From the NCBI RefSeq assembly GCF_000364625.1, contig NZ_KB822605.1, positions 1-64,000 of the forward strand: 64,000 nt of DNA. Reading direction: 5' to 3'. This DNA comes from Pseudomonas thermotolerans DSM 14292 (GTDB lineage: Bacteria; Pseudomonadota; Gammaproteobacteria; Pseudomonadales; Pseudomonadaceae). The stretch's first letter is position 1. Every line of letters begins with the position of its first letter. Positions 2,649 through 31,978 of the stretch are shown in pieces. A program made the translations under genes and the position numbers. The notes beneath the pieces are model-generated. The model was not told the DNA's origin. It was given only the letters and a program-made list of their open reading frames with translations, and ran no database searches.

Positions 2649-2737
2649 TCTTTTCTTCTCCTGCTTCGTTGTGCCCTTCTTCGCGGGTAAGAGGGCCAGG
2701 GGAGGGATCGTGGTCCCTGTTCCGACAAACTCATCCG

Positions 2738-2760
2738 GCGGCGGCCGAGGTCGCCGCCGC
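2738..2760 (-). other. Intercistronic hairpin between glcG and glcB
   Basis: GCGGCGGC (2738-2745) and GCCGCCGC (2753-2760) form a perfect 8-bp stem with a 7-nt loop. There is no U-run on the minus strand, so it is more likely an mRNA-processing or attenuating structure than a full terminator. Confidence 0.5.
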
Positions 2761-2768
2761 GTTCAGCC

Positions 2769-3167
2769 TCAGAGCGCGGCGATGCCGGCCTTGGCCACCT
2801 GGGCGTCCTGCTCGGCCTTGACCCCGGAGACGCCCACCGCACCGATCACCTGGCCGTCGACCAGCACCGGCACGCCACCTTCCAGAGCGGTGACGATGGG
2901 CGCGGTGACGAAGGCGGTGCGGCCGCCGTTGACCATGTCTTCGTAGCCCTTGGTCTCGCGGCGGCCGAGGGCGGCGCTGCGGGCCTTCTCGGTGGCGATG
3001 TAGGCGCCGATCGGCGCGCAGCCGTCGAGACGTTCGAGGGCCAGGGGATGACCGCCGTCGTCGACCACCACGATGGCCACCGGCCAGCTGTTCTTCTCGG
3101 CCTCGGCGCGGGCGGCGGCGAGGATGCGGGTGACTTCGCTCTGGGTCAGGACTGCTTTCTGTTGCAT
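2769..3167 (-). CDS. glcG: GlcG family protein (HbpS-like)
   Basis: This 132-residue protein of the GlcG/HbpS (DUF336) family accompanies glycolate oxidase operons. Its exact role is not established; relatives bind haem or act as small ligand-binding proteins. Visible family features are VAIVVVDDGGHPLALERLDG near residues 30-50, the ATEKARSAA helix and the glycine-rich end VPVLVDGQVIGAVGVSG. No signal peptide is present. It lies between glcF and glcB, with stem-loops in both flanking gaps, as expected for a polycistronic mRNA with differential segment stability. Confidence 0.9.
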   Translation of the reverse strand: MQQKAVLTQSEVTRILAAARAEAEKNSWPVAIVVVDDGGHPLALERLDGCAPIGAYIATEKARSAALGRRETKGYEDMVNGGRTAFVTAPIVTALEGGVPVLVDGQVIGAVGVSGVKAEQDAQVAKAGIAAL

Positions 3168-3195
3168 GGCTTTACTCCGGTTGATTCGTGGCCGT

Positions 3196-3217
3196 GCCGG
3201 GACTTGCGTGTCCCGGC
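3196..3217 (-). other. Intercistronic hairpin between glcF and glcG
   Basis: GCCGGGAC (3196-3203) pairs perfectly with GTCCCGGC (3210-3217) around a 6-nt loop. No T-tract follows. It is probably an mRNA-stabilising or processing element within the glc transcript. Confidence 0.45.
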
Positions 3218-3257
3218 GCGGCGGTTGTCCGTGTCGCTCTGGGTAAAGAGGACGGGT

Positions 3258-4475
3258 TCAGTTGATGGCTTCTTCCACCAGTTCGATCCAGTGGCGAACC
3301 GGGGTCCGTCCGGCGCCGTCGAGGTGGGTCTGGCAGCCGATGTTGGCGGTGACGATGACTTCGGGCTTGCCGCTTTCCAGGGCATCCAGCTTGCGGTCGC
3401 GCAGCTGCCTGGAGAGCTCCGGCTGGGTCAGCGAGTAAGTGCCCGCCGAGCCGCAGCACAGGTGGCTGTCCGGCACGCTGGTGAGGTCGAAGCCGAGGCG
3501 CTTGAGCACATCCTCCACCGCGCCGCCGAGCTTCTGGGCGTGCTGCAGGGTGCAGGGGCAGTGGAAGGCCAGGCGCTTGTCGCCGCGGATGCCGAGCCGT
3601 TCCAGCGGCTCCTTGCGCAGCACCTCGACCAGGTCCAGGGCCAGTTCGCTGACCCGCTTGGCCTTGGCCGCGTACTGCGGGTCGTTCTCCAGCATGTGGC
3701 CGTAGTCGCGGACGAAGGCGCCGCAACCGCTGGCAGTCTGCACGATGGCCTCGGCACCGGCCTCGATGGCCGGCCACCAGGCGTCGATGTTGCGACGGGC
3801 GCGCTCCAGCCCCTGTTCCTGGGCGTTCAGGTGGTAGTCCACAGCGCCGCAGCAGCCGGCCTGCGGGGCGGCGATCACGCTGATGCCCAGGCGGTCGAGG
3901 ACGCGCGCGGCGGCGGCGTTGGTGTTTGGCGACAGGGACGGCTGCACGCAGCCTTCCAGCATCAGCACGCGGCGAGCATGGCGCGGCTCGGGACGCGGCT
4001 TGGCCGGGTGCGGCTGGCGTGGCAGCTTGTTCTGCAGGTTTTCCGGCAGCAGCGGGCGGAACACCTGGCCGGCGCGGGTCAGCGCCTTGAACAGCTTGGG
4101 TCGCGGCACCACGGCGCGCAGACCACTGCGCAGCATGCGCTCGCCGAGGGGGCGCGGCACGTACTCCTCGACCACCGCGCGGCCGATGTCCAGCAGGTTG
4201 TGGTAGTCCACGCCGGACGGGCAGGTGGTCTCGCAGTTGCGGCAGCTCAGGCAGCGGTCCAGGTGCAGCTGGGTCTTGGCGGTGACTTCCTGGCCTTCGA
4301 GAACCTGCTTGATCAGGTAGATGCGTCCGCGCGGGCCGTCCAGCTCGTCACCCAGCAGCTGGTAGGTGGGGCAGGTGGCGGTGCAGAAGCCGCAATGCAC
4401 GCAGGCGCGCAGGATACGTTCAGCCTCTTCGGCGCGGGGCAGGCGCTTGGCTTGTTCGCTCAGATTGGTTTGCAT
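3258..4475 (-). CDS. glcF: Glycolate oxidase iron-sulfur subunit
   Basis: The iron-sulfur subunit of the membrane-associated glycolate oxidase GlcDEF passes electrons from the flavin subunits to the quinone pool. The 405-residue product carries a [4Fe-4S] motif, CVHCGFCTATCP (Cys25, 28, 31, 35), and a second one, CLSCRNCETTCP, about 50 residues later. Two CCG domains follow (AGCCGAVDYH and HLCCGSAGTY). The ATG at 4475 gives MQTNLSEQAKRLP, matching the family N-terminus; the reading frame continues open upstream only as a shadow over glcE. It lies 8 bp after the glcE stop, which fits co-translation. Confidence 0.96.
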   Translation of the reverse strand: MQTNLSEQAKRLPRAEEAERILRACVHCGFCTATCPTYQLLGDELDGPRGRIYLIKQVLEGQEVTAKTQLHLDRCLSCRNCETTCPSGVDYHNLLDIGRAVVEEYVPRPLGERMLRSGLRAVVPRPKLFKALTRAGQVFRPLLPENLQNKLPRQPHPAKPRPEPRHARRVLMLEGCVQPSLSPNTNAAAARVLDRLGISVIAAPQAGCCGAVDYHLNAQEQGLERARRNIDAWWPAIEAGAEAIVQTASGCGAFVRDYGHMLENDPQYAAKAKRVSELALDLVEVLRKEPLERLGIRGDKRLAFHCPCTLQHAQKLGGAVEDVLKRLGFDLTSVPDSHLCCGSAGTYSLTQPELSRQLRDRKLDALESGKPEVIVTANIGCQTHLDGAGRTPVRHWIELVEEAIN

Positions 4476-4483
4476 GGCTGTTC

Positions 4484-5536
4484 TCAGACTTCCGCGTACA
4501 TGCGACCGGGGTTGAAGATGCCCTGGGGGTCGAGTTGGCGCTTGAGACTCTGGTGGTAGCGCAGCAGGGCCGCGGGCAACGGGTGGAAGGAGTCGTCGCC
4601 GGGCGCGTAGCGGGTGGCATGGCCGCCGACTGCGCTCACCACGCGGCGGATGGTCTCGGCGTCGGCCTCGGACTTCAGCCAGCGCTGCGCGCCGCCCCAG
4701 TCGATCAGTTGCTCGCCGGGCAGCTCCAGCGGCGGGGTGTTGTTGGGCAGCGACAGCCGCCACAGCGGCGCCGGGTTGGCGAAGAACGCCAGGCGCTGCT
4801 CGCGCAGGTCCTGCCAGAAGCCGTTGTCGAGGTGCTCGCCACCGAGACGTTGGCGGGCGGCCTGCACCGAGCCTTCACCACCTTCCAGGCGCAGGTGCAG
4901 GGCCTGGCCGTCGTAGCAGGCGGCGCTGATCGGCATCGGCTGCTGGCCCCAGATGGCCAGCTCGCGCAGGGCCTCGGCCACGCCCAGTTCCAGGCTTAGG
5001 CTGACGCACTGACGCGGCTTGGGCAGCACCTTGAGGGACACCTCGGTGATCAGCCCCAGGCAGCCGAAGCTGCCGGCCAGCAGGCGCGACAGGTCATAGC
5101 CGGCGACGTTCTTCATCACCTCGCCACCGAAGCGCAGCAGCTTGCCGTGGCCGGTGATCACCCGAGTGCCGAGGACGAAGTCGCGCACCGAGCCGGCCCA
5201 GGGGCGGCGCGGGCCGGACAGGCCGCTGGCGACCATGCCGCCCAGGGTGGCGCCGTCGCCTAGGTGCGGCGGCTCGCAGGGCAGCATCTGCCCGGCGGCG
5301 TCGAGGACTTCCTCGATTTCCTTCAGCGGGGTGCCGGCGCGGGCGGTGAGCACCAGCTCGGTGGGGTCGTAGCTGACGATGCCGTGGTGGATGCGGGTGT
5401 CCAGCACCTCGCCGTTCAGCGGACGGCCGAGAAGGCTCTTGGTGTTGCCGCCCTGGATGCGCAGGGCGACGCCCTCGTTGAGGGCATAGCTGACCTGTTC
5501 CAGCAGGGCGGTGCTGGCGTCGTAATCGGCTCGCAT
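4484..5536 (-). CDS. glcE: Glycolate oxidase FAD-binding subunit
   Basis: The second flavin (PCMH-type) subunit of glycolate oxidase, 350 residues, as in characterised GlcE. Visible elements are IQGGNTKSLLG near residue 30, the FAD-pyrophosphate loop GDGATLGGMVASGLSGPRR around residue 95-115, and GGEVMKNVAGYDLSRLLAGS. The C-terminus ends DPQGIFNPGRMY, typical of the family. The start ATG (5536-5534) overlaps the glcD stop by one base (TGATG), implying translational coupling. The much longer open frame upstream on this strand is a shadow of glcD. Confidence 0.96.
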   Translation of the reverse strand: MRADYDASTALLEQVSYALNEGVALRIQGGNTKSLLGRPLNGEVLDTRIHHGIVSYDPTELVLTARAGTPLKEIEEVLDAAGQMLPCEPPHLGDGATLGGMVASGLSGPRRPWAGSVRDFVLGTRVITGHGKLLRFGGEVMKNVAGYDLSRLLAGSFGCLGLITEVSLKVLPKPRQCVSLSLELGVAEALRELAIWGQQPMPISAACYDGQALHLRLEGGEGSVQAARQRLGGEHLDNGFWQDLREQRLAFFANPAPLWRLSLPNNTPPLELPGEQLIDWGGAQRWLKSEADAETIRRVVSAVGGHATRYAPGDDSFHPLPAALLRYHQSLKRQLDPQGIFNPGRMYAEV

Positions 5537-7035
5537 CAGAATCGCTCCAGTTCGGGGAAGGGCAACTGCCCGTGGTGCACGTGCATGGCGCCGAATTCGG
5601 CACAGCGGTGCAGGGTCGGGATGTTCTTGCCGGGGTTGAGCAGGCGCTGCGGGTCGAAGGCCGCTTTCACCGCGTGGAACAGGGTGATTTCGTCGCTGTT
5701 GAACTGGGCGCACATCTGGTTGATCTTCTCGCGGCCCACGCCGTGCTCGCCGGTGATGCTGCCGCCGACTTCCACGCAGAGCTCGAGGATCTTGCCGCCG
5801 ATGGCCTCGGCGCGTTCCAGCTCGCCGGGGACGTTGGCATCGAAGAGGATCAGCGGGTGCATGTTGCCGTCGCCGGCGTGGAACACGTTGGCCACCCGCA
5901 GGCCGAACTCTTCGGAGAGCTTGGCGATGCCGTTGAGCACGCGCGGCAGCTCGCGGCGCGGGATGGTGCCATCCATGCAGTAGTAGTCCGGGGAGATGCG
6001 GCCGACCGCCGGGAAGGCGTTCTTGCGGCCGGCCCAGAAGCGCGCCCGCTCGGCCTCGTCGCGGGCCAGGCGCACGTCGGTGGCGCCGGCGGCCTTGAGC
6101 ACCGCCTCCACCCGTGCGCAGTCTTCCTGCACGTCGGCCTCCACGCCGTCCAGCTCGCAGAGCAGGATGGCCGCGGCATCCACCGGGTAGCCGGCGTGGA
6201 TGAAGTCCTCGGCGGCGCGAATCGACAGATTGTCCATCATCTCCAGACCGCCGGGGATGATGCCCGCGGCGATGATGTCGCCCACCGCGCGGCCGGCCTT
6301 CTCCACCGAGTCGAAGGCGGCCAGCAGCACCTTGGCCACCTGCGGCTTGGGCAACAGCTTGACGGTCACCTCGGTGACCACCCCGAGCATGCCTTCGGAG
6401 CCGGTGAACAGCGCCAGCAGGTCGAAGCCAGGAGCATCCAGAGCGTCGCTGCCGAGGGTGATGCGCTCGCCCTCGATGGTGAGAATGTCCACCTTCAGCA
6501 GGTTGTGGACGGTCAGGCCGTACTTCAGGCAGTGCACGCCGCCGGCGTTTTCCGCCACGTTGCCGCCGATGGAGCAGGCGATCTGCGAGGAAGGGTCCGG
6601 GGCGTAATAAAGATCGTAGGGCGCTGCGGCCTGGGAGATGGCCAGGTTGCGTACGCCGGGCTGGACGCGGGCGAAGCGGCCCGCGGGGTTCACCTCGAGG
6701 ATGCGGTTGAAGCGCGCCATCACCAGCAGAATGCCCTGTTCCAGGGGCAGGGCGCCGCCGGACAGGCCGGTACCGGCGCCGCGGGCGACCACCGGCACGT
6801 TGCGGGCGTGACAGAGCTTGAGCAGGGTCTCGACCTGCTCGATGCGCTCCGGCAGAACTACCAGCATCGGCATGGTGCGATAGGCGGAAAGCCCGTCGCA
6901 TTCGTAGGGTTTCAGGTCTTCCTGGCTGTGCAGGATTTCCAGATCGGGCAGTGCCTCGCGCAGTTCCGCGAGCAGGGCGGCCTTGTCCACCTTGGGCAGG
7001 GCACCATCGAGGCGTTCGTCGTAAAGAATGTTCAT
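5536..7035 (-). CDS. glcD: Glycolate oxidase, FAD-linked catalytic subunit
   Basis: Oxidises glycolate (and D-lactate) to glyoxylate within GlcDEF. The 499-residue product has a PCMH-type FAD domain (ARGAGTGLSGGALPLEQGIL near residue 85; SSQIACSIGGNVAENAGG near 150) and an FAD-oxidase C-terminal domain with the metal/substrate His motif VFHAGDGNMHPL and GSITGEHGVGREK. It is the first gene of the minus-strand glc operon. The 263-bp gap to the divergent glcC contains two FadR-type operators. It overlaps glcE by one base. Confidence 0.97.
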   Translation of the reverse strand: MNILYDERLDGALPKVDKAALLAELREALPDLEILHSQEDLKPYECDGLSAYRTMPMLVVLPERIEQVETLLKLCHARNVPVVARGAGTGLSGGALPLEQGILLVMARFNRILEVNPAGRFARVQPGVRNLAISQAAAPYDLYYAPDPSSQIACSIGGNVAENAGGVHCLKYGLTVHNLLKVDILTIEGERITLGSDALDAPGFDLLALFTGSEGMLGVVTEVTVKLLPKPQVAKVLLAAFDSVEKAGRAVGDIIAAGIIPGGLEMMDNLSIRAAEDFIHAGYPVDAAAILLCELDGVEADVQEDCARVEAVLKAAGATDVRLARDEAERARFWAGRKNAFPAVGRISPDYYCMDGTIPRRELPRVLNGIAKLSEEFGLRVANVFHAGDGNMHPLILFDANVPGELERAEAIGGKILELCVEVGGSITGEHGVGREKINQMCAQFNSDEITLFHAVKAAFDPQRLLNPGKNIPTLHRCAEFGAMHVHHGQLPFPELERF

Positions 7036-9416: not shown

Positions 9417-9969
9417 AATCGGTTTACGGACGGATGATGGCTTTGCAGTTGCTGGTGGTTGCGGTTGATGAAGCAGCCCGAGATCAGAGAGACGCGAGGC
9501 TACGGGATGAGAGGCGCAGCCACGCCGGCTGACGAGGAGGACGACAGGCTGGCTTGGCGTATATACAATTTAACATAATATACATTATGCGAACTTTTGG
9601 GTTGCAGGATGTAGGTGAAGCCCAGCAGCATTTTTCGTCTGCAACACCGGCTTGGCGGACTTTTCTTTTATCCCAGGTTGCATTCAATGGTCACGCGCGC
9701 CAGAGAGCGCTCCGACCACCTCGGCTGACGATGGAACGCGCCGCGGAATTCCACGGCCAGAAAAAACCGGCCGCCGTATCGCGTGGATCGTGAGGCTCTT
9801 GGCCTGATCATCGAAGTGATCGTGATCCTCATGCACATACCGAGCTTCGAGCCGGCCTCGAGCAGCCAGTAAGGGCGCCTGCGCCATTCTCCCGGCTTCC
9901 GCCGGAGGGCTCTCGCCTGGGTCGGAAATGGCAGGCAAGATAGAGACTTTCCCCAGCAGAGGTCGCTTC
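9417..9969. other. Gene-free interval carrying the dif site
   Basis: No credible gene is seen in these 553 bases. A 79-codon plus-strand ORF at 9554-9793 begins inside the dif core, has no family resemblance and no good ribosome site. The only strong signal is the AT-rich XerC/XerD site at 9568-9595. The rest is ordinary GC-rich intergenic sequence. Confidence 0.7.
9568..9595 (-). other. dif: dif chromosome dimer resolution site (XerC/XerD)
   Basis: Read on the minus strand, this 28-bp element has an XerC arm AGTTCGCATAA (9595-9585), a central hexamer TGTATA (9584-9579) and an XerD arm TTATGTTAAAT (9578-9568). From memory, the XerD arm and central region are identical to the E. coli and Pseudomonas dif cores, and the XerC arm differs only at its outer end. 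It is the only AT-rich island in several kilobases and lies in a gene-free gap. XerCD recombine chromosome dimers here under FtsK control, so the site marks the replication terminus. Confidence 0.9.
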
Positions 9970-10509
9970 ATGTCCAGCATCCCGCCCGCCGAGCCGCCCC
10001 GCATCCGCTGGATCGAGAAGCTCAAGGACGGCAGCCATGTGCTGATCCGGCCGCTGCTGCCGGAGGACCGGGAGCGCGAGGCGGAATTCATCTCCAACCT
10101 GTCCCCGGAGGCGCGCTATTTCCGTTTCTTCCGCGCCTTCCAGGAACCCTCCCCCGGGCTGCTCGACTTCCTGATGAACCTGGACTACCGCAACACTATG
10201 GCCTTCGTGGCCCTGGTCCACCGCAACGGCCGGATAATCGAGGTAGGAATCGCCCGATACGGGGCCACGGCGCCGGACAGCTGCGAGTGCGCGGTGGTGG
10301 TGGCCGACGACTGGCGCCGCAAGGGCCTGGCCAGCCTGCTGATCCGCCATCTGCTCGACTACGCGCGCAGCCAGGGCTTCGCCCAGATGTACTCGGTGGA
10401 TGCGCCGACCAACCGTGCCGTCCAGTCCCTGGCCAGCTACCTGGGCTCGGAATGCCGCCGCGACCCGGACGACCCCGGGCAACTGATCCACAGCATGAAG
10501 CTGCGCTAG
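9970..10509 (+). CDS. GNAT-family N-acetyltransferase
   Basis: A 179-residue protein with a GNAT fold: an N-terminal LKDGSHVLIRPLLPEDRE (strand 1/helix 1), then a central VALVHRNGRIIEVGIARY, then the acetyl-CoA-binding loop VADDWRRKGLASLLIRHLLDYA (motif A, Q/RxxGxG/A type) and the C-terminal motif B region PTNRAVQSLASYLG. It resembles the GNAT domain found in protein acetyltransferases of the Pat type, but it stands alone. ATG 9970 after GCAGAGG is preferred; an in-frame ATG at 9928 would add 14 residues. Substrate unknown. It is convergent with the hydrolase gene downstream. Confidence 0.85.
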   Translation: MSSIPPAEPPRIRWIEKLKDGSHVLIRPLLPEDREREAEFISNLSPEARYFRFFRAFQEPSPGLLDFLMNLDYRNTMAFVALVHRNGRIIEVGIARYGATAPDSCECAVVVADDWRRKGLASLLIRHLLDYARSQGFAQMYSVDAPTNRAVQSLASYLGSECRRDPDDPGQLIHSMKLR

Positions 10510-10582
10510 CCAGAGCCCTCGCTCCGCCAGGCCAGTCGCCCGTTTCAGCCGCCCTGCCCATCCGCCATCGGCAATGCGTCAG

Positions 10583-11533
10583 CTAGGCAACACTCTGCTC
10601 CCGCCGCACTTCCCGGATCAGATTCAGGCTGCGCAGAAACTCCAGCTGCTTGCCAATCACCTCGCTGAACACCGGCTCGAAGTAGGGTTCGAAATGGTTG
10701 GCCTTGACCCTTTCCACCCGGATGCAGGGATTGTTCACCGCGCGGATCGCCGACTCCACGAAGGGCGCGACGGTATCCTCGCTGGCCTCCAGCAGCAGTG
10801 TGGGAACCCTGATTTCCTTCAGGCGCTTGAAGGGCCGATAGGGTCCCATGGTCAGCAGGGAACGCGCCGCGACGCGGTTGTCGTACCTGCGCTGCAGGCT
10901 GCGCTCGGCCAGCACCAGCGCCTTGTGGGCGTCATCCCTGTCCATCGAGGAAAAGGCCCCGGGCTCGCTGACCACCGGGATATAAATCGGCTTGCCCGGC
11001 TTGAACAGATCAGCCAGGCAGTAGAGGGCGAAGCGCAGCAGACGGAGGGGCGGCACGGCCCGCACCGTGGCGATGCCATCCAGCATGGGCACCTGGGCGA
11101 TCACCCCGGCCAGCTCGGGGTGATCCGCAGCCAGCTCCACCGCATGGCCGCCGCCGAACGAGGAACCCCAGATCACCACCTTGAGGGGATCGACGCCCGG
11201 CTGAGACTTCAGGAAGGCCAGTGCCGCATCGGCATCGCGCAGGCGCTGGCGGGCCGAGATGGTCTGCCGAGGTAGTCCGGCGCTTTCCCCCCAGCCACGG
11301 TAGTCGAAGGTCATGACCACGAACCCGGCACGGGTGAACTCTTCGTAGAAAGGCACCGTCAGGGCGTTCTGGATGCCGCCCCAGCCATGCACCATGAGAA
11401 TGGCCGGACGTTCCCCCTGGCAGGGGCTCGCCGGCCAATGCAGGGTTGCCGCGCACCAGACACCCTGTGAGTAGAAGCCTGTCCGTTCGCTGCGGCAGGT
11501 GAGGTCTTCGGGGCTATGTCTGAGCTTTTCCAT
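10583..11533 (-). CDS. Alpha/beta hydrolase
   Basis: A cytosolic serine hydrolase of 316 residues with no signal peptide. The fold is shown by ILMVHGWGGIQNAL (oxyanion loop, about residues 45-58), VVMTFDYRGWGES and the nucleophile elbow VIWGSSFGGGHAVE (Ser in GSSFGG). A late Asp (LLEASEDTVAPF) and His (KANHFEPYF) complete the probable triad. It is similar in outline to dienelactone hydrolase/YcjY-type esterases; substrate unknown. It diverges from the TetR gene 108 bp away, so that regulator probably controls it. Confidence 0.85.
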   Translation of the reverse strand: MEKLRHSPEDLTCRSERTGFYSQGVWCAATLHWPASPCQGERPAILMVHGWGGIQNALTVPFYEEFTRAGFVVMTFDYRGWGESAGLPRQTISARQRLRDADAALAFLKSQPGVDPLKVVIWGSSFGGGHAVELAADHPELAGVIAQVPMLDGIATVRAVPPLRLLRFALYCLADLFKPGKPIYIPVVSEPGAFSSMDRDDAHKALVLAERSLQRRYDNRVAARSLLTMGPYRPFKRLKEIRVPTLLLEASEDTVAPFVESAIRAVNNPCIRVERVKANHFEPYFEPVFSEVIGKQLEFLRSLNLIREVRREQSVA

Positions 11534-11641
11534 GGCGTGGCTCCGCGGGCAGAATTATCTTGTTCGGCATTCAAGAATCTCTAAGCTAACACTCCTGAAC
11601 ACGCTTCAAGATTGGCCTGAACGACCCAGGGAGCCGGCAGC

Positions 11642-12193
11642 ATGGCCAAGAACAAACGCGACATAGATCCGCAGATCAAAAAGCAGGAACTGGAAGAGAC
11701 CGCGGCCCGCCTGTTCCTCAGCTGTGGCTACGAGGCCACCTCCATGGGGCGGATCGCCGCAGAGCTGGGCGTCGCTCCCAACACTCTGTATTGGTACTAC
11801 GGCAGCAAGGACGAGCTGCTGGTCGGCGTGCTCAATCGCCTGCTCGCCGAGAGCCTCCGGCAGCTGCCCGCCATCATGGGGCTGCACCCCAGGGAGCAGA
11901 TGGACTGGGCGCTACGGCAGTTCGAAAAGAGCCGGCCGCTGGTCAATACGGTGCACGGCCGACTGAGTCAGTCTACGGTGATCCGAGACTGGCATGAGCG
12001 CTTTCACCAGGGCATGGAGGCTGCAGTGGTCCACGTCCTGCAAGCCAGGGGTATCAGCCACGAGCGGGCGCGGACACTGGCCACGGTGGCGACCTTTCTG
12101 GTGGAAGGGCTCCTGGCTCATCCCCACAGTGAGCGGCAAAGGGACGACATTCTCGACTGGTTTGCCCGCTGCGCCCTTGCAGAGCAGCCCTGA
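11642..12193 (+). CDS. TetR-family transcriptional regulator
   Basis: A 183-residue repressor-type protein. The N-terminal helix-turn-helix is ETAARLFLSCGYEATSMGRI followed by AAELGVAPNTLYWYYGSKDEL (residues about 20-60), the classic TetR signature. The C-terminal helices are divergent, as expected for the ligand-binding domain. The gene is divergent from the alpha/beta hydrolase. The intervening 108 bp contains two copies of TTCAAGA (near 11571 and 11607) that might be half-sites. It is convergent with opmB. Confidence 0.88.
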   Translation: MAKNKRDIDPQIKKQELEETAARLFLSCGYEATSMGRIAAELGVAPNTLYWYYGSKDELLVGVLNRLLAESLRQLPAIMGLHPREQMDWALRQFEKSRPLVNTVHGRLSQSTVIRDWHERFHQGMEAAVVHVLQARGISHERARTLATVATFLVEGLLAHPHSERQRDDILDWFARCALAEQP

Positions 12194-12279
12194 TCCCGAC
12201 GAGTCCGCTTCCGGTCAGTTAACGGCCCTGGCACTGGCTATGCTCGCCCTACCCCTCCTCCGCCAAGCCTGGCCCTGCC

Positions 12280-13746
12280 TTAGCGCTTTTCCGACACCTG
12301 CATCTGCGGCTCTTCCTGCAGCTGACTGGCGTCCCAGCCTCCGCCCAGGGCGGCGATCAGTTGCACACTGGCCAGCAGCCGGTTGCCGCGCAGGCTGAGC
12401 AAGGAGCGTTCGTTGGCGAGTGCGCTGGTCTGCACGCTGACCACGCTGTTGTAGTCCACGTGGCCGGCCTTGTACTGGTTCTCGATCAGCCGCAGGGATT
12501 CCCGGGCGGCCTCCAGGGCTTCCTGCTGCACTTCGGCCTCGCGCTCGTAGACCTTGAGCTGGATCAGGTAGTCCTCCACCTCGCGGAAGCCTTCCAGCAC
12601 GGTCTGCCGGTAGCTGGCCACGGTCTGGTCGTAGTTGGCCTCGGCCTGCTCGACGCGGGAGCGGATGATGCCGCCGTCGAACAGGGTCATGGCGAAGGCC
12701 GGGCCGATGGACCAGAAGCGGTTCGGCGTGCTGATCCAGTTGTCCAGGGCGCCGCTGCGGTAGCCGCCGGAGGCGGACAGGGTCAGGTCGGGGAAGTAGG
12801 CGGCCCTCTCCACGCCGATCGAGGCGTTGGCGGCCATCACCCGGCGCTCGGCGGCGGCGATGTCCGGGCGTCGCTCGAGCAGTGCCGAGGGCACGCTCAC
12901 CGGCACCTCGGGCAGCTCCGGCACCCGTTCCACCTCGGCCAGGCGGAACTCCGCCGGCGGCACGCCGATCAGCACGGCGATGGCATGCTCCAGCTGGGCA
13001 CGCTGGTATTCCAGGTCGATGGCCTGGGCTTCGGTGCTTTTCAGCTGGGTGCGCGCCTGGGTGACGTCGGACTTCGGCACTATGCCGGCTTTGTACTGGT
13101 TCTCGGTGAGTTTCAGGGAGCGCTGGTAGGCCTTCACGGTGGCGTCCAGCAGGCGTTTCTGCTCGTCCAGTACGCGCAGCTGCAGGTAGTTCTGCACCAG
13201 TTCCGCCTGCAAGCTCAGGCGCGCAGCGGCCAAATCGGCGGCGCTGGCCTCCAGGCTCGCGCTGTCGCCTTCCAGCTGGCGACGCAGGCGTCCCCAGAGA
13301 TCCAGCTCCCAGCTCACTCCGAGGCTGGCGTTGTAGCTCTTGGAGACGCTGGAGGCTGCGCTGGCATTGCTGTCATTGCCGATGCTGCCGCTGCCCTGCC
13401 CCGAGCGGGTCACGCCCACGTCGGCGCCCAGGCTGGGGAAGAAGGACGCCCGGGCGCCGCGTACCAGCGCCTTGGCCTGGCGGTACTGGGCCTCGGCGCT
13501 AGCCAGGTTCTGGTTGCTGGCGTTCAGGCGCTCGACCAGGCGGTTCAGCTCCTCGTCGCCATAGAGCTTCCACCACTCGCCGCCGATCAGCGCATCGGCC
13601 GGCGCGGTGGCCTTCCAGCCCTCGACCTGGCGGAAGGCGGCGCTGCTGGCCACCTCCGGGCGCTGGTAGTCGGGGCCGACGGCGCAGGCGCTCAGGGCCA
13701 GCGCCAGGGCCAGGGTGGTCAGGTAGGGTTTGGCGTGCGGAATCAT
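12280..13746 (-). CDS. opmB: Outer-membrane efflux channel lipoprotein (OpmB, NodT/TolC family)
   Basis: Outer-membrane duct of the MuxABC tripartite RND pump. The 488-residue product starts MIPHAKPYLTTLALALALSA and then CAVGPDY, a lipoprotein signal with lipobox LSAC. It shows two outer-membrane-efflux repeats (SYNASLGVSWELDLWGRLRR around residue 130; FWSIGPAFAMTLFDGG around 340). The ATG overlaps the muxC stop (ATGA, 13743-13746), so translation is coupled. The longer open frame extending to 14280 is a shadow over muxC. It is last in muxABC-opmB and no clear terminator follows before the convergent TetR gene. Confidence 0.95.
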   Translation of the reverse strand: MIPHAKPYLTTLALALALSACAVGPDYQRPEVASSAAFRQVEGWKATAPADALIGGEWWKLYGDEELNRLVERLNASNQNLASAEAQYRQAKALVRGARASFFPSLGADVGVTRSGQGSGSIGNDSNASAASSVSKSYNASLGVSWELDLWGRLRRQLEGDSASLEASAADLAAARLSLQAELVQNYLQLRVLDEQKRLLDATVKAYQRSLKLTENQYKAGIVPKSDVTQARTQLKSTEAQAIDLEYQRAQLEHAIAVLIGVPPAEFRLAEVERVPELPEVPVSVPSALLERRPDIAAAERRVMAANASIGVERAAYFPDLTLSASGGYRSGALDNWISTPNRFWSIGPAFAMTLFDGGIIRSRVEQAEANYDQTVASYRQTVLEGFREVEDYLIQLKVYEREAEVQQEALEAARESLRLIENQYKAGHVDYNSVVSVQTSALANERSLLSLRGNRLLASVQLIAALGGGWDASQLQEEPQMQVSEKR

Positions 13747-16700
13747 AGCGGCGTATCCAGTGCGGCATCGGTCTTCACACCGCGCCAGCGGTTGAAGCGG
13801 TGGCGCAGGCGATCGAAGTAGAGGTAGACCACCGGGGTGGTGTAGAGGGTGAGGATCTGGCTGAGGATCAGCCCGCCGACGATGCTCAGGCCCAGCGGCT
13901 GGCGCATCTCCGCGCCTTCGGTGCCGCCGATCAGCAGCGGTACGGCGCCGAGGATCGCCGCCAGGGTGGTCATCAGGATCGGCCGTAGGCGCTGCAGGCA
14001 GGCCTGGCGGATGGACTCGTCGGGCGGCAGGCCGTTCTCGCGCTCCAGCTGCAGGGCCAGGTCGATCATCAGGATGGCGTTCTTCTTGACTATGCCGATC
14101 AGCAGGAACAGGCCGAGCAGCGAGATCAGGCTGAACTGATCGCCGACCAGGAGAATCGCCAGCAGCGCCCCTACCCCTGCCGAGGGCAACGTGGAGAGGA
14201 TGGTCAGCGGATGCACGTAGCTCTCGTAGAGGATGCCCAGCACCAGGTAGACCAGCACCAGGGCGCCGAGGATCATCCACGGCTGGCTTTCCTGGGTCTG
14301 CTTGAAGGCATCGCCGGCGCCGCCCAGGCGGCCGATCACCTCGGTGGGCATGCCGATGGCCGCCACCGCGCGCTCGATGGCGCGGGTCGCCTGGTCGAGG
14401 CTGACCCCGGGGGCCAGGTCGAAGGAGATGCTTTCCGCGGCGAACTGCCCCTCATGGCTCACCCTATCCTCCTGCAGGCTGTACTCGTAGCTGGCGAAGG
14501 TGGACAGCGGCACCCGCTGTCCGTCGGTGGTGATCAGGTAGACCTGCTCCAGGGTGGTCGGGTCCTGGGCGTACTTGGGATTGACCTCCATCACCACCTG
14601 GTACTGGTTGAGGGTATCGTAGATGGTGGAGATCTGCCGCTGGCTGTAGGCGTTGTTCAGCACGCTGCTGACCATTTCCATGTCCACCCCCAGGCGTTTG
14701 GCCTGCTCGCGGTCGATCTTCAGGGTCACCTGCTGGGTGCCGCGGCCTTCGCGGGCGTCGATGGCGGTCAGTTCGGGCAGGGATTTCAGGGCCTCGGTGA
14801 CCTTCGGCAGCCACTCACGCAGCAGGGATAGCTCGCCGGTCTGCAGCACGTACTGGTACTGGGAGCTGTCGTCGCCGCGCGAGCCGCCGAACATCAGGTC
14901 CTGGTCGGGCATCAGCATCAGCCGTGCACCGGGTACCTTGGGCAGGTTCTGGCGCAGGCGCTGGATCACCTGCTGGGCATTCAGGTCGCGCTGGCTGCGC
15001 GGCTTGAGGCGGACGATCATGAAGGCGTTGTTGGTACCGCCGGAGCCGCCGATGAAGCCGGCCACGCTCTCCACGGCCGGATCCTTGAGCACGGCGCGGC
15101 GGAATATCTCCATCTTCGGCTGCATCACACTGAACGACAGGCCGTCGTCGCCACGGATGAAACCCATCAACTGGCCGGTGTCCTGGGTCGGCAGGAAGGT
15201 CTTGGGAATCACGATGTACAGGAACACGTTCAGCCCGATGGTCAGCAGCAGGCTGGCCAGGGTCAGCCGCGGATGGCGCAGCACCCAGCCCAGGGTGCGG
15301 TCGTAGAACGCCACCAGGCGCTCGTGCATGCGCTGGCTCCAGCGCTGCAGAGCGTTCTCGTCGCCGCTGTGGTGCGGCTTCAGCCAGCGCGCGCAGAGCA
15401 TCGGCGTGAGAGTCAGGGAGACCACCAGGGACACCAGGATGGCCGCCGCCAGGGTGATGGAGAACTCGCGGAACAGCTGGCCCACCACATCGCCCATGAA
15501 CAGGATGGAGACGAACACCGCCACCAGCGAGAGGTTCATGGACAGCAGGGTGAAGCCCACCTCGCGGCTGCCGAGCAGCGCGGCACGCAGCGGCTTCTCG
15601 CCGGCGTTGATGTGCCGGGCGATGTTCTCCAGCACCACGATGGCGTCGTCCACCACCAGGCCGGCGGCGAGGATTAGCGCCATCAGCGACAACACGTTGA
15701 GGGAAAAGCCCCACAGATACATCACCGCGAAGGTGCCGATCAGCGATATCGGCACCGCCAGGGCGGGAATCAGCGAGGCGCGTAGGTTGCCCAGGGAGAG
15801 GAACACCACGATGATCACCAGGGCCACGGCAATCAGCAGGGTGCGCTCGGCCTCGTGCAAGGTGGCGGTGATCACCGGCGAGCGGTCCGCGGCGATGCCC
15901 AGCTTGACGGTGGGCGGCAGAACCGCCTGGAGCGCCGGCAGCTGCGCCTTGATGGTGTTGATGGTCTCGATGATGTTGGCGCCGGCCTGGCGGTTGATCA
16001 CCAGCAGCACGGCGTCGCGATCGTTGAAGAAGCCGCTGTTGTAGCGGTTCTCCACCGCGTCGCGGACCCTGGCCACGTCGGACAGGCGCAGCGCGGCGCC
16101 ATCCTGATAGCGAATGATCAGCGGCTGGTAGTCCCTGGCGCGTTCCAGCTGGTCGTTGGCCTGCACCTGCCAGTGGCGCTCGCCGTCCTCCACCATGCCC
16201 TTGGGCCGGCGTACGTTGGCTTGGGAGATAGCGTTGCGCACCTCGTCGAGGCTGATGCCGTACTGGTTGAGCAGCTGCGGCTCGAGCTCGACGCGCACCG
16301 CCGGCAGCGAACTGCCGCCGACCTGCACCTCGCCGACGCCGGTCACCTGGGACAGGCTCTGCGCCAGGATGGTGTCGGCCAGGTCGTAGAGCTCGCCCTT
16401 GGAGAGCACGTCGGAGGTCAGCGAGAGCACCATGATCGGCGCCTGCGAGGGGTTGACCTTGCGATAGGTGGGCATGCTGCGCATGCCGCTGGGCAGCATG
16501 TTGCGCGCCGCGTTGATCGCCGCCTGCACGTCGCGGGCCGCGCCGTTGATGTCGCGGGTCGCCTCGAACTGCAGGATGATCCGCGTGTTGCCCTGGCTGG
16601 TCCGGCTGGTCATCTGGGTGATCCCGGAGATGGTGCCCAGGGAGCGTTCCAGCGGCGTGGTGACGCTGGAGGCCATGACTTCCGGGCTGGCTCCGGCCAG

Positions 16701-16850
16701 GCTGGCCTGCACGGTGATCACCGGGAAGTCCATCTGCGGCAGCGGCGACACCGGCAGCAGGCCGAAGCTGAGCCCGCCGAGCAGGAGGATCGCCAGGCTG
16801 AACAACATGGTCGCCACCGGGCGGGTGATGAAGGGGGCGGAGAGATTCAT
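13743..16850 (-). CDS. muxC: RND efflux transporter MuxC
   Basis: Inner-membrane RND pump subunit, 1035 residues. MuxB and MuxC together form a heteromeric pump like MdtBC. It begins MNLSAPFITRPVATMLFSLA (first membrane helix) and has the 12-TM RND layout with large periplasmic loops. The TM4 proton-relay pattern VVDDAIVVLENIARH is present, as is [16 protein letters not shown]. The two-halves symmetry shows in LVYLVLGILYESYVHPLTILS and [16 protein letters not shown]. It is separated from muxB by 100 bp with a CCCCTC/GAGGGG hairpin and overlaps opmB by 4 bp. Confidence 0.96.
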   Translation of the reverse strand: MNLSAPFITRPVATMLFSLAILLLGGLSFGLLPVSPLPQMDFPVITVQASLAGASPEVMASSVTTPLERSLGTISGITQMTSRTSQGNTRIILQFEATRDINGAARDVQAAINAARNMLPSGMRSMPTYRKVNPSQAPIMVLSLTSDVLSKGELYDLADTILAQSLSQVTGVGEVQVGGSSLPAVRVELEPQLLNQYGISLDEVRNAISQANVRRPKGMVEDGERHWQVQANDQLERARDYQPLIIRYQDGAALRLSDVARVRDAVENRYNSGFFNDRDAVLLVINRQAGANIIETINTIKAQLPALQAVLPPTVKLGIAADRSPVITATLHEAERTLLIAVALVIIVVFLSLGNLRASLIPALAVPISLIGTFAVMYLWGFSLNVLSLMALILAAGLVVDDAIVVLENIARHINAGEKPLRAALLGSREVGFTLLSMNLSLVAVFVSILFMGDVVGQLFREFSITLAAAILVSLVVSLTLTPMLCARWLKPHHSGDENALQRWSQRMHERLVAFYDRTLGWVLRHPRLTLASLLLTIGLNVFLYIVIPKTFLPTQDTGQLMGFIRGDDGLSFSVMQPKMEIFRRAVLKDPAVESVAGFIGGSGGTNNAFMIVRLKPRSQRDLNAQQVIQRLRQNLPKVPGARLMLMPDQDLMFGGSRGDDSSQYQYVLQTGELSLLREWLPKVTEALKSLPELTAIDAREGRGTQQVTLKIDREQAKRLGVDMEMVSSVLNNAYSQRQISTIYDTLNQYQVVMEVNPKYAQDPTTLEQVYLITTDGQRVPLSTFASYEYSLQEDRVSHEGQFAAESISFDLAPGVSLDQATRAIERAVAAIGMPTEVIGRLGGAGDAFKQTQESQPWMILGALVLVYLVLGILYESYVHPLTILSTLPSAGVGALLAILLVGDQFSLISLLGLFLLIGIVKKNAILMIDLALQLERENGLPPDESIRQACLQRLRPILMTTLAAILGAVPLLIGGTEGAEMRQPLGLSIVGGLILSQILTLYTTPVVYLYFDRLRHRFNRWRGVKTDAALDTPL

Positions 16851-16883
16851 CGCAGTCCCCCGGCTTGCGGCGCGCCGCTGCGT

Positions 16884-16922
16884 TCCCCTCTCCCCCGGCC
16901 CGTCTTTCCGCGGGTGAGGGGA
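16884..16922. repeat. Intergenic CCCCTC/GAGGGG hairpin between muxB and muxC
   Basis: TCCCCTC (16884-16890) pairs with GAGGGGA (16916-16922), with a further CCCG/CGGG inside. The same arm sequence forms a hairpin between liuA and liuB at 60167-60193, so this looks like a small dispersed extragenic repeat. It lies within the mux operon and may affect mRNA stability. Confidence 0.5.
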
Positions 16923-16950
16923 GCCAGGCCTTGTCCTGCTCCGCCACGGC

Positions 16951-19900
16951 TCATGCCAAGGCCTCCTCGCCTTCCTCGCGACGCTTGAAGCGGCGCGCCA
17001 GGCGGTCGAAGTACAGGTAGATCACCGGGGTGGTGAACAAAGTCAGCACCTGGCTGACCAGCAGGCCGCCGACCATCACCAGGCCCAGCGGCTGGCGCAG
17101 CTCGGCGCCGGAGCCGCTGGCGAGCATTAGCGGGATGGCGCCGAACAGCGCCGCGAAGGTGGTCATCAGGATCGGTCTGAAGCGCAGCAGCGCCGCCTGG
17201 TAGATGGCGTCGCGGGGGCTCAGGCCCTGGTTGCGCTCGGCCTCCAGGGCGAAGTCGATCATCATGATGGCGTTCTTCTTGACGATGCCGATCAAGAGGA
17301 TGATGCCGATGATGGCGATCAGCCCCAGGTCGTTGCCGGTCAGGAGCAGAGCCAGCAAGGCGCCGACGCCCGCCGAGGGCAGTGTGGAGAGGATGGTGAT
17401 CGGGTGGATGTAGCTCTCGTAGAGCACGCCCAGCACGATGTACATGGTCACCACCGCGGCGAGGATCAGCAGCAAGGTGCTCGACAGCGAGGCGCGGAAG
17501 GCCTCGGCGGCGCCCTGGAAGCGGCTCACCACGCCGGCCGGCATGCCGATTTCCTGCTGGGTGCTTTCGATCACCTCCACCGCCTCGCCGAGAGACACCC
17601 CGGGAGCCAGGTTGAACGACAGGTTGACCGCCGGGAACTGGCCGATGTGGTTGATCACCAGCTCGGCGTTGCGTTCCTCGATGGTCGCCAGACTGGACAG
17701 CGGAATCTGCTTGCCGCCGGCAGTCTTCACGTGGATCTGGCGTAGCGCCTGCGGGCCGATATCCGCGCCGCTGGCCGACTGCAGCACCACCCGGTACTGG
17801 CTGGCCTGGGTGAAGATGGTGGAGATCTGCCGCTGGCCGAAGGCGTCGTAGAGCGCGTCGGTGATGCTCGACACGTTGACGCCGAGGCGTCCGGCCAGGT
17901 CGCGGTCGATGTTCAGGTAGACCTGCAGGCCCTGGTCCTGCAGGTCGCTGGCCACGTCGCGCAGCTGCGGCTTCTCGCGCAGGGCGTCAACCAGCTTGCG
18001 GGTCCACTCGCTGAGCAGCGCCTTGTCCGGCGACTCCAGGCTGAACTGGTACTGGGTGCGGCTGACCCGGTCCTCGATGGTCAGATCCTGCACCGGCTGC
18101 ATGTACAGGCGGATGCCGCTCAGGCGGTCGACCTGCGGCTGCAGGCGTTGGATCACCTCGCTGGCGGTGACGTCGCGCTCGCCGTGGGGCTTGAGGTTGA
18201 TCAGCAGGCGCCCGCTGTTCAGGGTGACGTTGTCGCCGTCCACGCCGATGTAGGAGCTCAGGCTCTCCACCGCCGGATCCTGGAGGATCACCTCGGCCAG
18301 TTCCTGCTGACGGGCGCTCATGGCGCGGAAGGAGATCGACTGCGGCGCCTCGGAGATGGCCTGGATCAGCCCGGTGTCCTGCACCGGGAAGAAGCCCTTG
18401 GGCACCGCTAGGTAGAGCAGCACGGTCAGCCCCAGGGTGGCGATGGCCACCAGCAGGGTCAGCGGCTGGTGGCGCAGCACCCACTGCAGCTGGCGCCCAT
18501 AGCCGGCGATCAGCCGCTCGAACCATTCGCCGCTGACTCGGTAGAACCAGCCCTGCTCGCTCTTCTCCGCCTCGCGCTTAAGCAGCCGGCCGCACATCAT
18601 CGGCGTCAGGGTCAGGGACACCACCAGGGAGATCAGGATGGCCACCGCCAGGGTGATGGCGAACTCGCGGAACAGCCGGCCCACCACGTCGGCCATGAAC
18701 AGCAGGGGGATCAGCACGGCGATCAGCGAGAAGGTCAGCGAGACCAGGGTGAAGCCGATCTGCCGGGCGCCCTTGAGCGCGGCATTGAGCGGCGTCTCAC
18801 CCTCCTCCAGGTGGCGGGCGATGTTCTCCAGCATGACGATGGCGTCGTCGATCACGAAGCCGGTGGCGATGGTCAGCGCCATCAGGGTCAGGTTGTTGAT
18901 CGAGAAGCCGGCTAGGTACATGACCGCGAAGGTGCCGATCAGCGACAGCGGCACCGCCACCGAGGGAATGATGGTGGCGGACAGCTTGCGCAGGAACAGG
19001 AAGGTCACCAGCACCACCAGGATCACCGAGAGCAGCAGCTCGTGCTGCACGTCCTCGACCGAGGCGCGGATGGTCTGGGTGCGGTCGCTGAGGATGCGCA
19101 CGTCGACGCCCGAGGGCATGGTGGAGGCGATCGCCGGAAGCATCTTCTCGATGCGGTCGACCACCTCGATGACGTTGGCTCCCGGCTGGCGCTGGATGTT
19201 GATCAGCACCGCCTGCTGGCGGTCGGCCCAGGCCGCCAGGCGCTCGTTCTCGGCGCCCATCTCGATATCGGCGACGTCCTTCAGGCGCAGCGCGGCACCG
19301 TCGTTGTAGGCAAGGATGAGGTTGGCGTACTCCTCGGGGGACTTCAGCTGGTCGTTGGCGTCGAGCATCGACACTCGGGTCGGGCCGTCGAAGTTGCCCT
19401 TCGGCTGGTTGACGTTGGCCGAGGTGATCAGCGCGCGCACGTCGGAGAGATTCAGGCCGTTGGCCGCCAGGGCCTCGGGATTGACCCGCACGCGCACCGC
19501 CTGGCGCTGGCCGCCGGCCAGGCTGACCATGCCCACGCCGCTGATTTGCGCCAGTTTCTGCGCCATACGGGTGTCCACCAGGTCATGCAGGCGCGGCAGC
19601 GGGATGGTCGGCGAACTGACCGCCACGGTGAGCACCGGGGTGTCGGCCGGGTTGACCTTGTTGTACACCGGCGGCGCCGGCAGGTCGTTGGGCAGCAGGT
19701 TGTTGGCCGCATTGATCGCCGCCTGGACTTCCTGTTCGGCGACGTCCAGGCCCATTTCCAGAGTGAAGCGCAGGGTGATCACCGAGGCGCCACCGGAGCT
19801 GGTCGAGGACATCTGCGCCAGGCCCGGCATCTGCCCGAACTGGCGCTCCAGGGGAGCAGTCACCGCGCTGCTCATCACCTCGGGGCTGGCCCCCGGGTAG

Positions 19901-20049
19901 AGGGTCATGACGCGGATGGTCGGGTAGTCCACCTGGGGCAGCGCGGCGACCGGCAGCAGCCGATAGGCGATCAGCCCGGCAAGGAGGATCGCCACCATGC
20001 TCAGGGTGGTGGCGACCGGCCGGAGGATGAAGATCCGCGAGAGGTTCAT
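16951..20049 (-). CDS. muxB: RND efflux transporter MuxB
   Basis: 1032-residue RND pump subunit, the partner of MuxC in the inner membrane. It begins [22 protein letters not shown]4 carries [18 protein letters not shown], the family proton-relay aspartates. The second half shows [20 protein letters not shown] and [16 protein letters not shown]. The start ATG (20049) overlaps the muxA stop by 4 bp (ATGA). Related MdtB/MuxB pumps export novobiocin, bile salts and some beta-lactams; substrates of this copy cannot be read from the sequence. Confidence 0.96.
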
Positions 20050-21389
20050 ACGCCAGGCTTGCCGTTAGCGTCGCCCAGGCGGCCCGGGCGGGAGGAACCG
20101 TTGTCGCTGCCCTGCAGCTGCTCGCCGGGCAGGCTGGGGATGCTCTGGTCGCCGCTGACCACTTCCACCTCGCTGCCGTCGCGCAGGCGGTCGGTGCCTT
20201 CCAGTACCACGCGCTCGCCGGCCTTCAGGCCGTCACGGATCACGGTAGTCTCGCCGTCGCTCGGGCCGAGCTGCAGGTTGCGCACGCGCGCCTTGTTGTC
20301 GGCATCCACCACGTAGACGAAGGCGCCTTCGCTGCCGTGCTGTACCGCCGAGCTGGAGAGCAGCACCGCCTTGTCCAGGGTGGCGGCGCGCAGGCGCACG
20401 TTGACGAACTGGTTGGGGAACAGGGTTTCCTTCTCGTTGGCGAAGCGCGCCTTGAGCTTCAGGGTGCCGGTGGTGGTGTCGATCTGGTTGTCCAGGCTGT
20501 GCAGCACGCCCTCGGCCAGCTTCCGGGTGTCATTGCGGTCCCAGGCCTCTACCAGCAGCCGATCGCCGGCGCGGTAGCGCTCCAGCACCTCCGGCAGGTC
20601 GCGCTCCGGCAGGGTGAAGGCCACGCTGATCGGCTGGGTCTGGGTGATCACCACCAGCGGGGTGGCGTCGCTGGAGTTGACCAGATTGCCGACGTCCACC
20701 TGGCGCAGACCGAGACGCCCGGAAATCGGCGCCTTGACGCGGGTGAACTCCAGGTTCAGGCGCGCCTCGGCGACCGCCGCCTGGTTGCTCTTCAGGGTGC
20801 CTCGGTACTGGGCGACCAGAGCCTCCTGGGTGTCCAGGGTCTGCTTGGCGATGCTGTCCTCGGCGTACAGGTCGCGGTAGCGCTTGAGGTCCAGCTCGGC
20901 GTTGCGCAGTTGCGCCAGATTCTGGGCCAGGGCGCCCTCGGCCTGCTGCAGGGCCACCTCGAAGGGGCGCGGGTCGATCACCGCAAGCACGTCGCCCTCC
21001 TTGACCAGCTGCCCTTCCTCGAAGGCCAGCTTGACCAGCTGGCCGCTGACCCGACCGCGCACGTTCACCGTGTTGAGCGCGGTCACCGTGCCCAGCGCCT
21101 TGTAATAGACGGAGAAGTCGCCCTCGGTGGCGGCGGTGACCCGGACCGGGGTCGGACCGGAATCGAAGCCGCCGAAGCCGGGCGGGCCGCCACGCCGGCG
21201 CGGGCCCTGGGGCTGGGTCAGCGAACTGCCCTGCTGGGGCTTGAACCTCTGCCCGCTCGCCTGCTGGTCGGGGTTGGCGGATGGCCACAGCCACCAGGCC
21301 AGCAGGGCCACGACGACGGCGACCAGAAGGAACAACGGCCAGTAGCGACGGATTCGGGAAGCGGAGTTGTTGGTAGGGAAGTCGGCCAT
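20046..21389 (-). CDS. muxA: RND efflux periplasmic adaptor MuxA
   Basis: Membrane-fusion protein that couples MuxBC to OpmB. The 447-residue product has one N-terminal membrane anchor ([20 protein letters not shown], about residues 15-34). A low-complexity linker follows, then the biotinyl-lipoyl-like half [20 protein letters not shown], an alpha-hairpin coiled region and the second lipoyl half [20 protein letters not shown]. The C-terminal beta-barrel ends with [20 protein letters not shown]. It is the first gene of the operon. No lipobox is present, unlike many adaptors. Confidence 0.95.
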
Positions 21390-21601
21390 GATGGACAGTC
21401 AGAATTTTCGGAAGGCTGCACGATAAGCACAGCGGGTCGTCAAGCAAAGTCTCTTTACCGGCTTTTTACCTAAAGCTGACGTTGCTAACCCACTGACGGG
21501 CAATGAAAAGCTGCAGGGATGGTGATCCGGGACGGCGGTACAAGGCATTTCCGGCCATGTCAGGGGCGGGCCCCTGCCCTTCGCGTTCCGCCGGCACGGG
21601 A

Positions 21602-21625
21602 AAACGGCCTGACGGGCAGGCCGTT
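21602..21625 (-). terminator. Terminator after tpx
   Basis: AACGGCCTG (21603-21611) and CAGGCCGTT (21617-21625) form a perfect 9-bp stem with a 5-nt loop. On the minus strand it is followed by TTCCC after the terminal TT of the stem. It lies 15 nt after the tpx stop. Confidence 0.75.
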
Positions 21626-21639
21626 CTCGCAGGGAGGAA

Positions 21640-22143
21640 TTACTTCTGCAGGGCCGCCAGGGCGGCATCGTAGTTCGGCTCGTTGGCGATCTCGCCGACC
21701 AGTTCGCTGTGCAGCACTCGATCGTGCTCGTCCAGCACCACCACGGCACGGGCGGCCAGGCCGGCCAGCGGTCCGCTGGTGATGGCCACGCCGTAGTTCC
21801 TGAGGAATTCGCTGCCGCGCAGGGTCGACAGGGTCATCACGTTGGTCAGACCCTCGGCGCCGCAGAAGCGCGACTGGGCGAACGGCAGGTCGGCGGAGAT
21901 GCACAGCACCAGGGTGTTGGCCAACTGGCTGGCCTTCTCGTTGAATTTGCGCACCGAGGTGGCGCAGGTTGGGGTATCGATGCTCGGGAAGATGTTCAAC
22001 ACCTTGCGCTTGCCGGCCAGGCTGGCCAGGGTCACGTCGGCCAGGTCCTTGCCGACCAGGCTGAACGCCGGCGCCTGCTGGCCAGGCTGCGGCAGCTGAC
22101 CGGCAACTTCGACCGGGTTGCCCTTGAGGGTCACTTGAGTCAT
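21640..22143 (-). CDS. tpx: Thiol peroxidase (2-Cys peroxiredoxin, Tpx type)
   Basis: Reduces hydrogen and alkyl peroxides using thioredoxin. The 167-residue product has the peroxidatic cysteine in [16 protein letters not shown] (Cys60) and the resolving cysteine in [12 protein letters not shown] (Cys94), the atypical 2-Cys Tpx spacing. [12 protein letters not shown] and the C-terminal [10 protein letters not shown] are also family-typical. It is a single gene between muxA and tamB with its own downstream terminator. In-frame upstream codons give no better start. Confidence 0.96.
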
Positions 22144-22325
22144 GAGACGGGTCCTTCTTGTTTACCTGAGTGAATGAGTCGGTCTTGCTCGAAAAGTTAA
22201 ACATGCCCGGGAGCAAATGTCCTGAGCAACCTGTGGCAGGTATGCGGTTTGATTTGCCGAACGACGGCTGCCCCGCTCTCCCCGCCCACTGAGAAGCCGG
22301 AAGGCCGCCAAGGTTCCCCGCCGGT

Positions 22326-27739: not shown

Positions 27740-27757
27740 GGGGGCGGATGCTAACAC

Positions 27758-27789
27758 GGCGGGAGCCGCAGACCAGTACGGCTCCCGCC
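27758..27789 (-). terminator. Strong hairpin between the GNAT gene and tamA
   Basis: GGCGGGAGCCG (27758-27768) and CGGCTCCCGCC (27779-27789) form a perfect 11-bp stem with a 10-nt loop directly after the GNAT stop. No U-tract follows on the minus strand, so it may be an attenuator or a weak terminator. Confidence 0.55.
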
Positions 27790-27796
27790 CATCGTC

Positions 27797-28450: not shown

Positions 28451-28561
28451 TCGCGATCGACCTCTTTGTTATTGTTGTCCATGACTTCCGGGCCCGGCCC
28501 GGAGAGGCCCTCAGCCACGTTAGCACCGCCCCCGCGCCACCGCCAGACACCAGGCCCTTGC

Positions 28562-31975: not shown

Positions 31976-31978
31976 GCC

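Follow-up and report, generated by a model that had tools for sequence, protein, structure and literature searches.

The 64,000-nucleotide stretch analysed here (the window) corresponds to positions 1–64,000 of contig C7, a 168-kb piece of the 3.75-Mb draft genome of Pseudomonas thermotolerans DSM 14292, which is divided into 75 contigs. Near its left end it contains a short sequence resembling dif, the site where joined sister chromosomes get separated before cell division. This locus raises the question of whether it is the host's own dif, what it says about the replication terminus, and whether the site really ends at its 28 bp.

A single chromosomal dif site

The minus strand of 9595..9568 reads AGTTCGCATAA-TGTATA-TTATGTTAAAT, a 28-bp sequence divided into 11+6+11 bases, whose arms we assign to XerC and XerD following established dif anatomy:

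9568..9595, minus strand: dif site, 28 bp, recognised by its sequence, its uniqueness in the draft and the occurrence of one per genome in 59 of 59 genus genomes
9585..9595, minus strand: XerC arm AGTTCGCATAA, read from the sequence
9579..9584, minus strand: central hexamer TGTATA, read likewise
9568..9578, minus strand: XerD arm TTATGTTAAAT, read likewise

The gene-free gap of 553 bp (9417–9969) in which the preliminary description placed this sequence has that length if the acetyltransferase starts at the ATG at 9970, and measures 511 bp if the start is at 9928.

The full 28-mer, with up to three mismatches, matched the draft genome once (the search covering the 75 contigs, with the sequence between them outside it), and a better dif elsewhere, which the preliminary description had considered as a counter-sign, was not found in the draft at this tolerance. 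The reversed 28-mer, used as a control under the same limit, had zero matches there. A 28-bp pattern in which three positions were free and up to three mismatches allowed had one match in the window and none in 100 shuffles, and it retrieved exactly one dif per genome in all 59 genus genomes, the own genome included. In a wider draw, a 24-bp pattern at up to three mismatches detected dif in 212 of 219 genus genomes and nothing in the other seven. The sole genome of the 219 with two sites was the relative G203, whose second dif-like sequence is located on another contig (G203:C2:94801-94824). Across the species-genome collection, 86 stretches carry the exact 28-mer. Of the 80 that came back as loci, 13 are titled Pseudomonas or Azotobacter and 67 are others, these last including Halomonas, Pectobacterium, Methylomonas, Neisseria and many MAGs.

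The arrangement of the FtsK-orienting octamer GGGNAGGG provided a further line of evidence. In the window it forms two series:

2699..7001, plus strand: four GGGNAGGG octamers left of dif (2699, 5555, 6745, 6994), all toward dif
10147..50570, minus strand: thirteen GGGNAGGG octamers right of dif, 11 of them toward dif (exceptions at 14775 and 48774)

All seven octamers listed earlier exist, and the full window count (15/17 toward dif; 4/4 on the left and 11/13 on the right) agrees with the earlier remark, made from a partial reading, that they mostly face the site. Their number is not raised (17 found versus 19.9 expected), their polarity being the striking part. Over the entire contig C7, 35 of 38 octamers point to dif (binomial p 6.7e-8), with a switch of polarity at the site: 4/4 are oriented toward it on the left and 31/34 on the right (strands 4+/0− and 3+/31−, the left arm comprising only 9.5 kb and four octamers). 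Genome-wide, GGGNAGGG occurs 724 times (384 + 340) and the backward-read pattern 425 times (222 + 203). The same convergence was observed in 20 samples of 20 kb from the single-contig relative G012, with octamers distributed 26+/6− before dif and 1+/20− after it. Since the reversed octamer GGGANGGG, used as a control, leans the same way, more weakly, on C7 (left 1+/0−, right 3+/7−), part of the far-side bias may be general strand bias; in G012 this control gave 7+/7− before dif and 1+/5− after.

The genome also encodes the expected machinery: XerD (389.5 bits versus an NCBIfam cut-off of 329.6), XerC (353.8 bits versus 335.15) and an FtsK_gamma domain (98.9 bits) found once in the genome, at 127.8 kb of C7 and, therefore, 118 kb from dif. 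Two more recombinase-like frames with equal scores lie near contig ends (G000:C32:16498-16965 and G000:C34:183-650) and are perhaps copies of one integrase. Following the established pathway, septal FtsK would be steered along the polar GGGNAGGG octamers toward dif and would activate XerD on the XerD arm, and XerCD would then resolve chromosome dimers at the central hexamer. Binding and recombination by XerCD at the window dif are thus expected from established knowledge of this system.

One might ask whether 9568–9595 is instead a copy of dif carried by a phage or island, that is, the attachment remnant of an element using XerCD. Such elements are known to target dif (PMC2731167), and the 26-bp core of the site occurs exactly in 62 viral contigs. 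However, the site is single in the draft genome, none of nine neighbouring or nearby proteins scanned in Pfam is phage-like (six proteins were scanned in NCBIfam), and the octamer polarity switches at 9568–9595, all of which makes this origin very improbable. The sequence itself, its single genome match, its conservation, the octamer convergence and the presence of the machinery genes bear out the near-canonical dif recognised in the preliminary description. We consider it almost certain that 9568–9595 is the host's own dif, on the chromosome of a bacterium of the genus Pseudomonas (a genus assignment supported by the dif type it shares with its named relatives), and as an XerC/XerD site it is canonical, of the ordinary, textbook kind. 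It marks where segregation should end in the Pseudomonas thermotolerans DSM 14292 genome.

GC skew, the terminus and gene order near dif

The cumulative G−C curve of C7 rises, dips near 40 kb, peaks at 46,348 and from there declines as far as the contig end. This maximum is 37 kb to the right of dif, ~1.0% of the genome (on a contig where the left arm has only 9.5 kb). In G012, 10 of the 11 samples preceding the dif sample showed positive GC skew (the exception being the first, at the contig start), the dif sample itself (2.365–2.385 Mb) was weakly positive and 8/8 samples after it were negative, which locates the sign change between the dif sample and 2.53 Mb. In published work, the average distance from skew switch to dif is 13 kb (PMC6199493) and one standard deviation covers distances of 0.00–1.39% (PMC3025954). 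The 37-kb distance is somewhat loose compared with these values and does not contradict them, so that a skew inflection far from 9.6 kb, which had been named beforehand as evidence against the site, is a borderline matter here.

The preliminary description also took the window to span the replication terminus. For P. aeruginosa it is reported that dif is the end point of segregation and that replication finishes opposite oriC; in strain PAO1-UW, dif is located at 2.4 Mb and the end of replication at 3.2 Mb, the skew switch being 682 kb away from the latter (PMC6199493). The statement is best read as 'the window spans dif', which is correct; 'terminus' was an overstatement, given that the PAO1-UW forks meet elsewhere (PMC6199493).

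It had further been proposed that glc, mux and liu, loci far apart in other pseudomonads, meet here. We searched 19 relatives for malate synthase G, LiuB and MuxB and used 17 of them (G023 and G052 were dropped as not single-contig). The muxB gene was found 90–409 kb from dif (3–13% of the half-chromosome) and liuB 109–1333 kb from it (4–40%). Since both are nearer to dif than to the opposite point in 17/17 relatives, a position in the dif half of the chromosome is, as a rule of the genus, usual for mux and liu, and this part of the proposal does not seem to hold. The best malate synthase G match was 763–3209 kb from dif (28–98% of the half-chromosome, median 82%); it was at 1.77–2.34 Mb in the three relatives where its identity is 80% or higher and at 28–29% of the half-chromosome in G018 and G020 (72–73% identity), and in G012 a glcC match stood beside it. 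As the own genome has two malate synthase G genes, the best match may be a paralogue in many relatives; the second gene (G000:C3:143054-145216) shares 74% identity with the copy beside dif. Here, the distance from muxB to dif is ~7 kb, closer than in any of the 17 relatives. The glc cluster thus looks displaced, as the proposal had it: most likely it moved next to dif in this genome, and the muxB–dif distance most likely shrank. A mis-assembly may produce the same picture; glcC and dif are 1.5 kb apart inside one contig. We regard glc beside dif as one example of gene order change near the terminus.

Several other features of the window deserve mention. An Rfam search of the whole window at the gathering threshold detected a terC RNA (RF03067) at 30897–30955 on the plus strand, with 53.7 bits versus a gathering score of 39.9, and nothing besides, with no match at dif. 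Positions 8202–9416 (plus strand) form one 404-aa frame in which a GFA domain is combined with a PhnB-like (3-dmu-9_3-mt) domain; the DNA matches of these two domains are 6.5 kb apart in the relative G007, and this is either a fusion or a pair of genes sharing a single frame. Finally, window positions 1–273, the start of C7, match C31:19144-19416 at 93%, beside a GntR-type regulator frame, and we read this segment as part of a glycolate/lactate permease paralogue. Because of this match, the start of C7 looks like a repeat break; the contig adjoining C7 on the left was sought in the draft and not found.

Conserved flanks beside the 28 bp

From the 212 genus genomes with a match we took 93 distinct dif loci, one per genome, and aligned them ungapped on the 28-mer (99 rows less six duplicates; 12 rows had been hand-picked for small genomes or odd arms). 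Column identity was computed from the 4225 of 4278 locus pairs whose far flanks were less than 31% identical. Conservation reaches past the 28 bp, from about −43 to +38 (the XerC side being left and negative). Against a mean pair identity of 0.252 in 600 far columns (sd 0.010, maximum 0.309), the left flank attains 0.55/0.57 at −37/−36, 0.49 at −18 and 0.61/0.49 at −7/−6, and the right flank 0.53 at +29, 0.55/0.64 at +31/+32 and 0.57 at +34. The columns −39, −32, −12, −10 and −9, interleaved with them, are at background (0.25–0.27). When the loci were divided into four ad hoc groups by XerC arm, positions −37, −36, −18, −7, +29, +31, +32 and +34 kept one commonest base across all groups, and −6 did not.

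Part of this pattern is mirrored. The commonest bases at −8..−5 are AATA, followed by C or T equally at −4, a mirror of GTATT at +31..+35 (with G nearly as common at +33). With at most one mismatch, a left outer box ATAC (−7..−4) is present in 42/93 loci, a right outer box GTAT (+31..+34) in 55/93 and both together in 27/93, compared with a mean of 3.6% (maxima 13% and 10%) at control offsets. These boxes came originally from the same loci; when derived from a random half of them, they were found in 48% and 56% of the other half. An A-run near −37 and a GC-rich stretch at −22..−18 have no mirror on the other side. In the window, the two flanks are:

9596..9638, minus strand: XerC-side flank (dif −1 to −43), fitting the genus pattern with an A-run at −40 to −36 and A at −8/−7
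9557..9567, minus strand: XerD-side flank (dif +28 to +38), matching the genus pattern weakly

Scored with a leave-one-out profile, the window XerC-side flank is equalled by 0.1% of 1000 own shuffles, and its outer box is ACCC, two mismatches from ATAC. The XerD-side flank, with ATAT one mismatch from GTAT, has an own-shuffle fraction of 0.065, which is not significant. This test at 5% or less was passed by 82/93 left and 71/93 right flanks, the genus loci being the only ones covered. Three known kinds of element were considered for the XerC-side flank and set aside on inspection by eye: a Fis site (the pyrimidine/purine pair of that motif is absent), an IHF site (its core is absent) and a promoter (a −10-like box is clear in one arm group only). 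Also by eye, loci L011 and L188 have the left flank beyond about −30 replaced by a common sequence, insertion-like in appearance.

Where loci of other families carry the identical 28-mer, conservation next to it is much weaker. The left pattern appears in the consensus of the 13 Pseudomonadaceae loci with this 28-mer (three of which repeat rows of the 93), and among the 67 other loci only +33A and +34T reach a flank consensus. With leave-one-out profiles, the 99% level of the contig background was exceeded on the left by 77/93 genus loci versus 18/65 others (the 67 less two with short flanks) and on the right by 79/93 versus 22/65; at the 95% level the counts were 87/93 versus 36/65 and 87/93 versus 39/65. 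Because the contig background is GC-rich, AT-richness alone lifts the score of any dif flank in this comparison, and the own-shuffle test is the fairer one. Gapped local alignment of 700 pairs placed 17% of them above the shuffled 95% level at −60..−1 and 13% at +28..+87, with 4–11% in six other segments (10–11% in two far segments). The gapped signal near dif is thus slight, and the argument for the flank is based on the column counts.

Readings of the flank and comparison with known sites

From these alignments, the Pseudomonas dif appears to be embedded in a longer stretch of conserved sequence, which may have a role. Selection on the flanks is plausible, a lead and not a result. We give roughly even odds to an extended dif of ~80 bp, composed of the mirrored outer boxes and a one-sided A-run element on the XerC side and kept by selection despite the turnover around it. 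The boxes ATAC and GTAT might extend the contacts that XerC and XerD make, or be bound by a symmetric helper protein, and the A-run near −37 might offer a further protein an accessory contact confined to the XerC side. Flank columns at 0.49–0.64 pair identity against a far-column maximum of 0.309, outer boxes in 42 and 55 of 93 loci against 3.6% at control offsets that hold in split halves, the left pattern shared by the 13 Pseudomonadaceae loci and absent from the 67 others, and the excess of genus loci above the 99% background level on both sides all point in this direction. However, the pattern is only partly genus-specific, as about half of the other loci pass the 95% level and AT-rich outer bases and +33A/+34T occur in other families too. 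In addition, the locus counts ignore kinship and are not independent, three of the 13 Pseudomonadaceae rows repeat rows of the 93, gapped alignment contributes little (17% and 13% near dif versus 10–11% in two far segments), and the window's own boxes are two and one mismatches off.

The flank could alternatively be functionless, reflecting common ancestry beside an immobile anchor or the debris of past insertions at dif, a reading that we find quite possible if somewhat doubtful. The loci do form groups with common flanks. The XerD arm ends in TTAAAC in 20/93, and a right-hand block with ATGTTCAT follows in 12 of these 20 versus 5 of the 73 others, a partly similar TGCTATGTTAGAA being found after dif in 12 of 62 viral contigs. 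Mere inheritance or debris sits less well with the interleaving of background-level and conserved columns, and with the eight conserved columns that keep their commonest base in all four arm groups. The block with ATGTTCAT was observed in L004, L007, L015, L017, L161, L163, L183, L185, L186, L190, L216 and L217, and was possibly left by dif-using phages; in its Pseudomonas form, at up to five substitutions, it had one match in the 62 viral contigs. If the flank is functional, as in an extended dif, the minimal 28-bp site used in Pseudomonas work would miss part of it and dif-targeting phages would have more to match.

The 28 bp themselves have the architecture and XerD arm of E. coli dif, with an XerC arm differing at two bases. 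The PAO1 dif of P. aeruginosa, listed as GATTCGCATAATGTATATTATGTTAAAT in a table of PMC2731167, is likewise 28 bp long and identical at 26/28 bases, including the central hexamer and the XerD arm; it differs in its first two bases, GA, where the window dif has AG. In P. aeruginosa, GGGNAGGG converges on dif (PMC6199493), as it does at the window dif; unlike the contig peak 37 kb away, the PAO1 skew switch is within 15 kb of dif. The XerCD attachment sites of filamentous phages resemble the window dif in that 62 viral contigs share its 26-bp core, and differ in that the window site is single-copy, with no phage gene among the scanned neighbours. Concerning the flanks, a survey of open-licence papers by title and abstract opening yielded none on conservation outside the 28 bp in Pseudomonas; a figure of PMC2731167 plots bases outside dif, so that this conservation may already be partly in print. 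Lastly, the outer region of difH is reported to have a bearing on the order in which XerH binds and cleaves (PMC5357621), which constitutes a partial precedent for an extended Pseudomonas dif.
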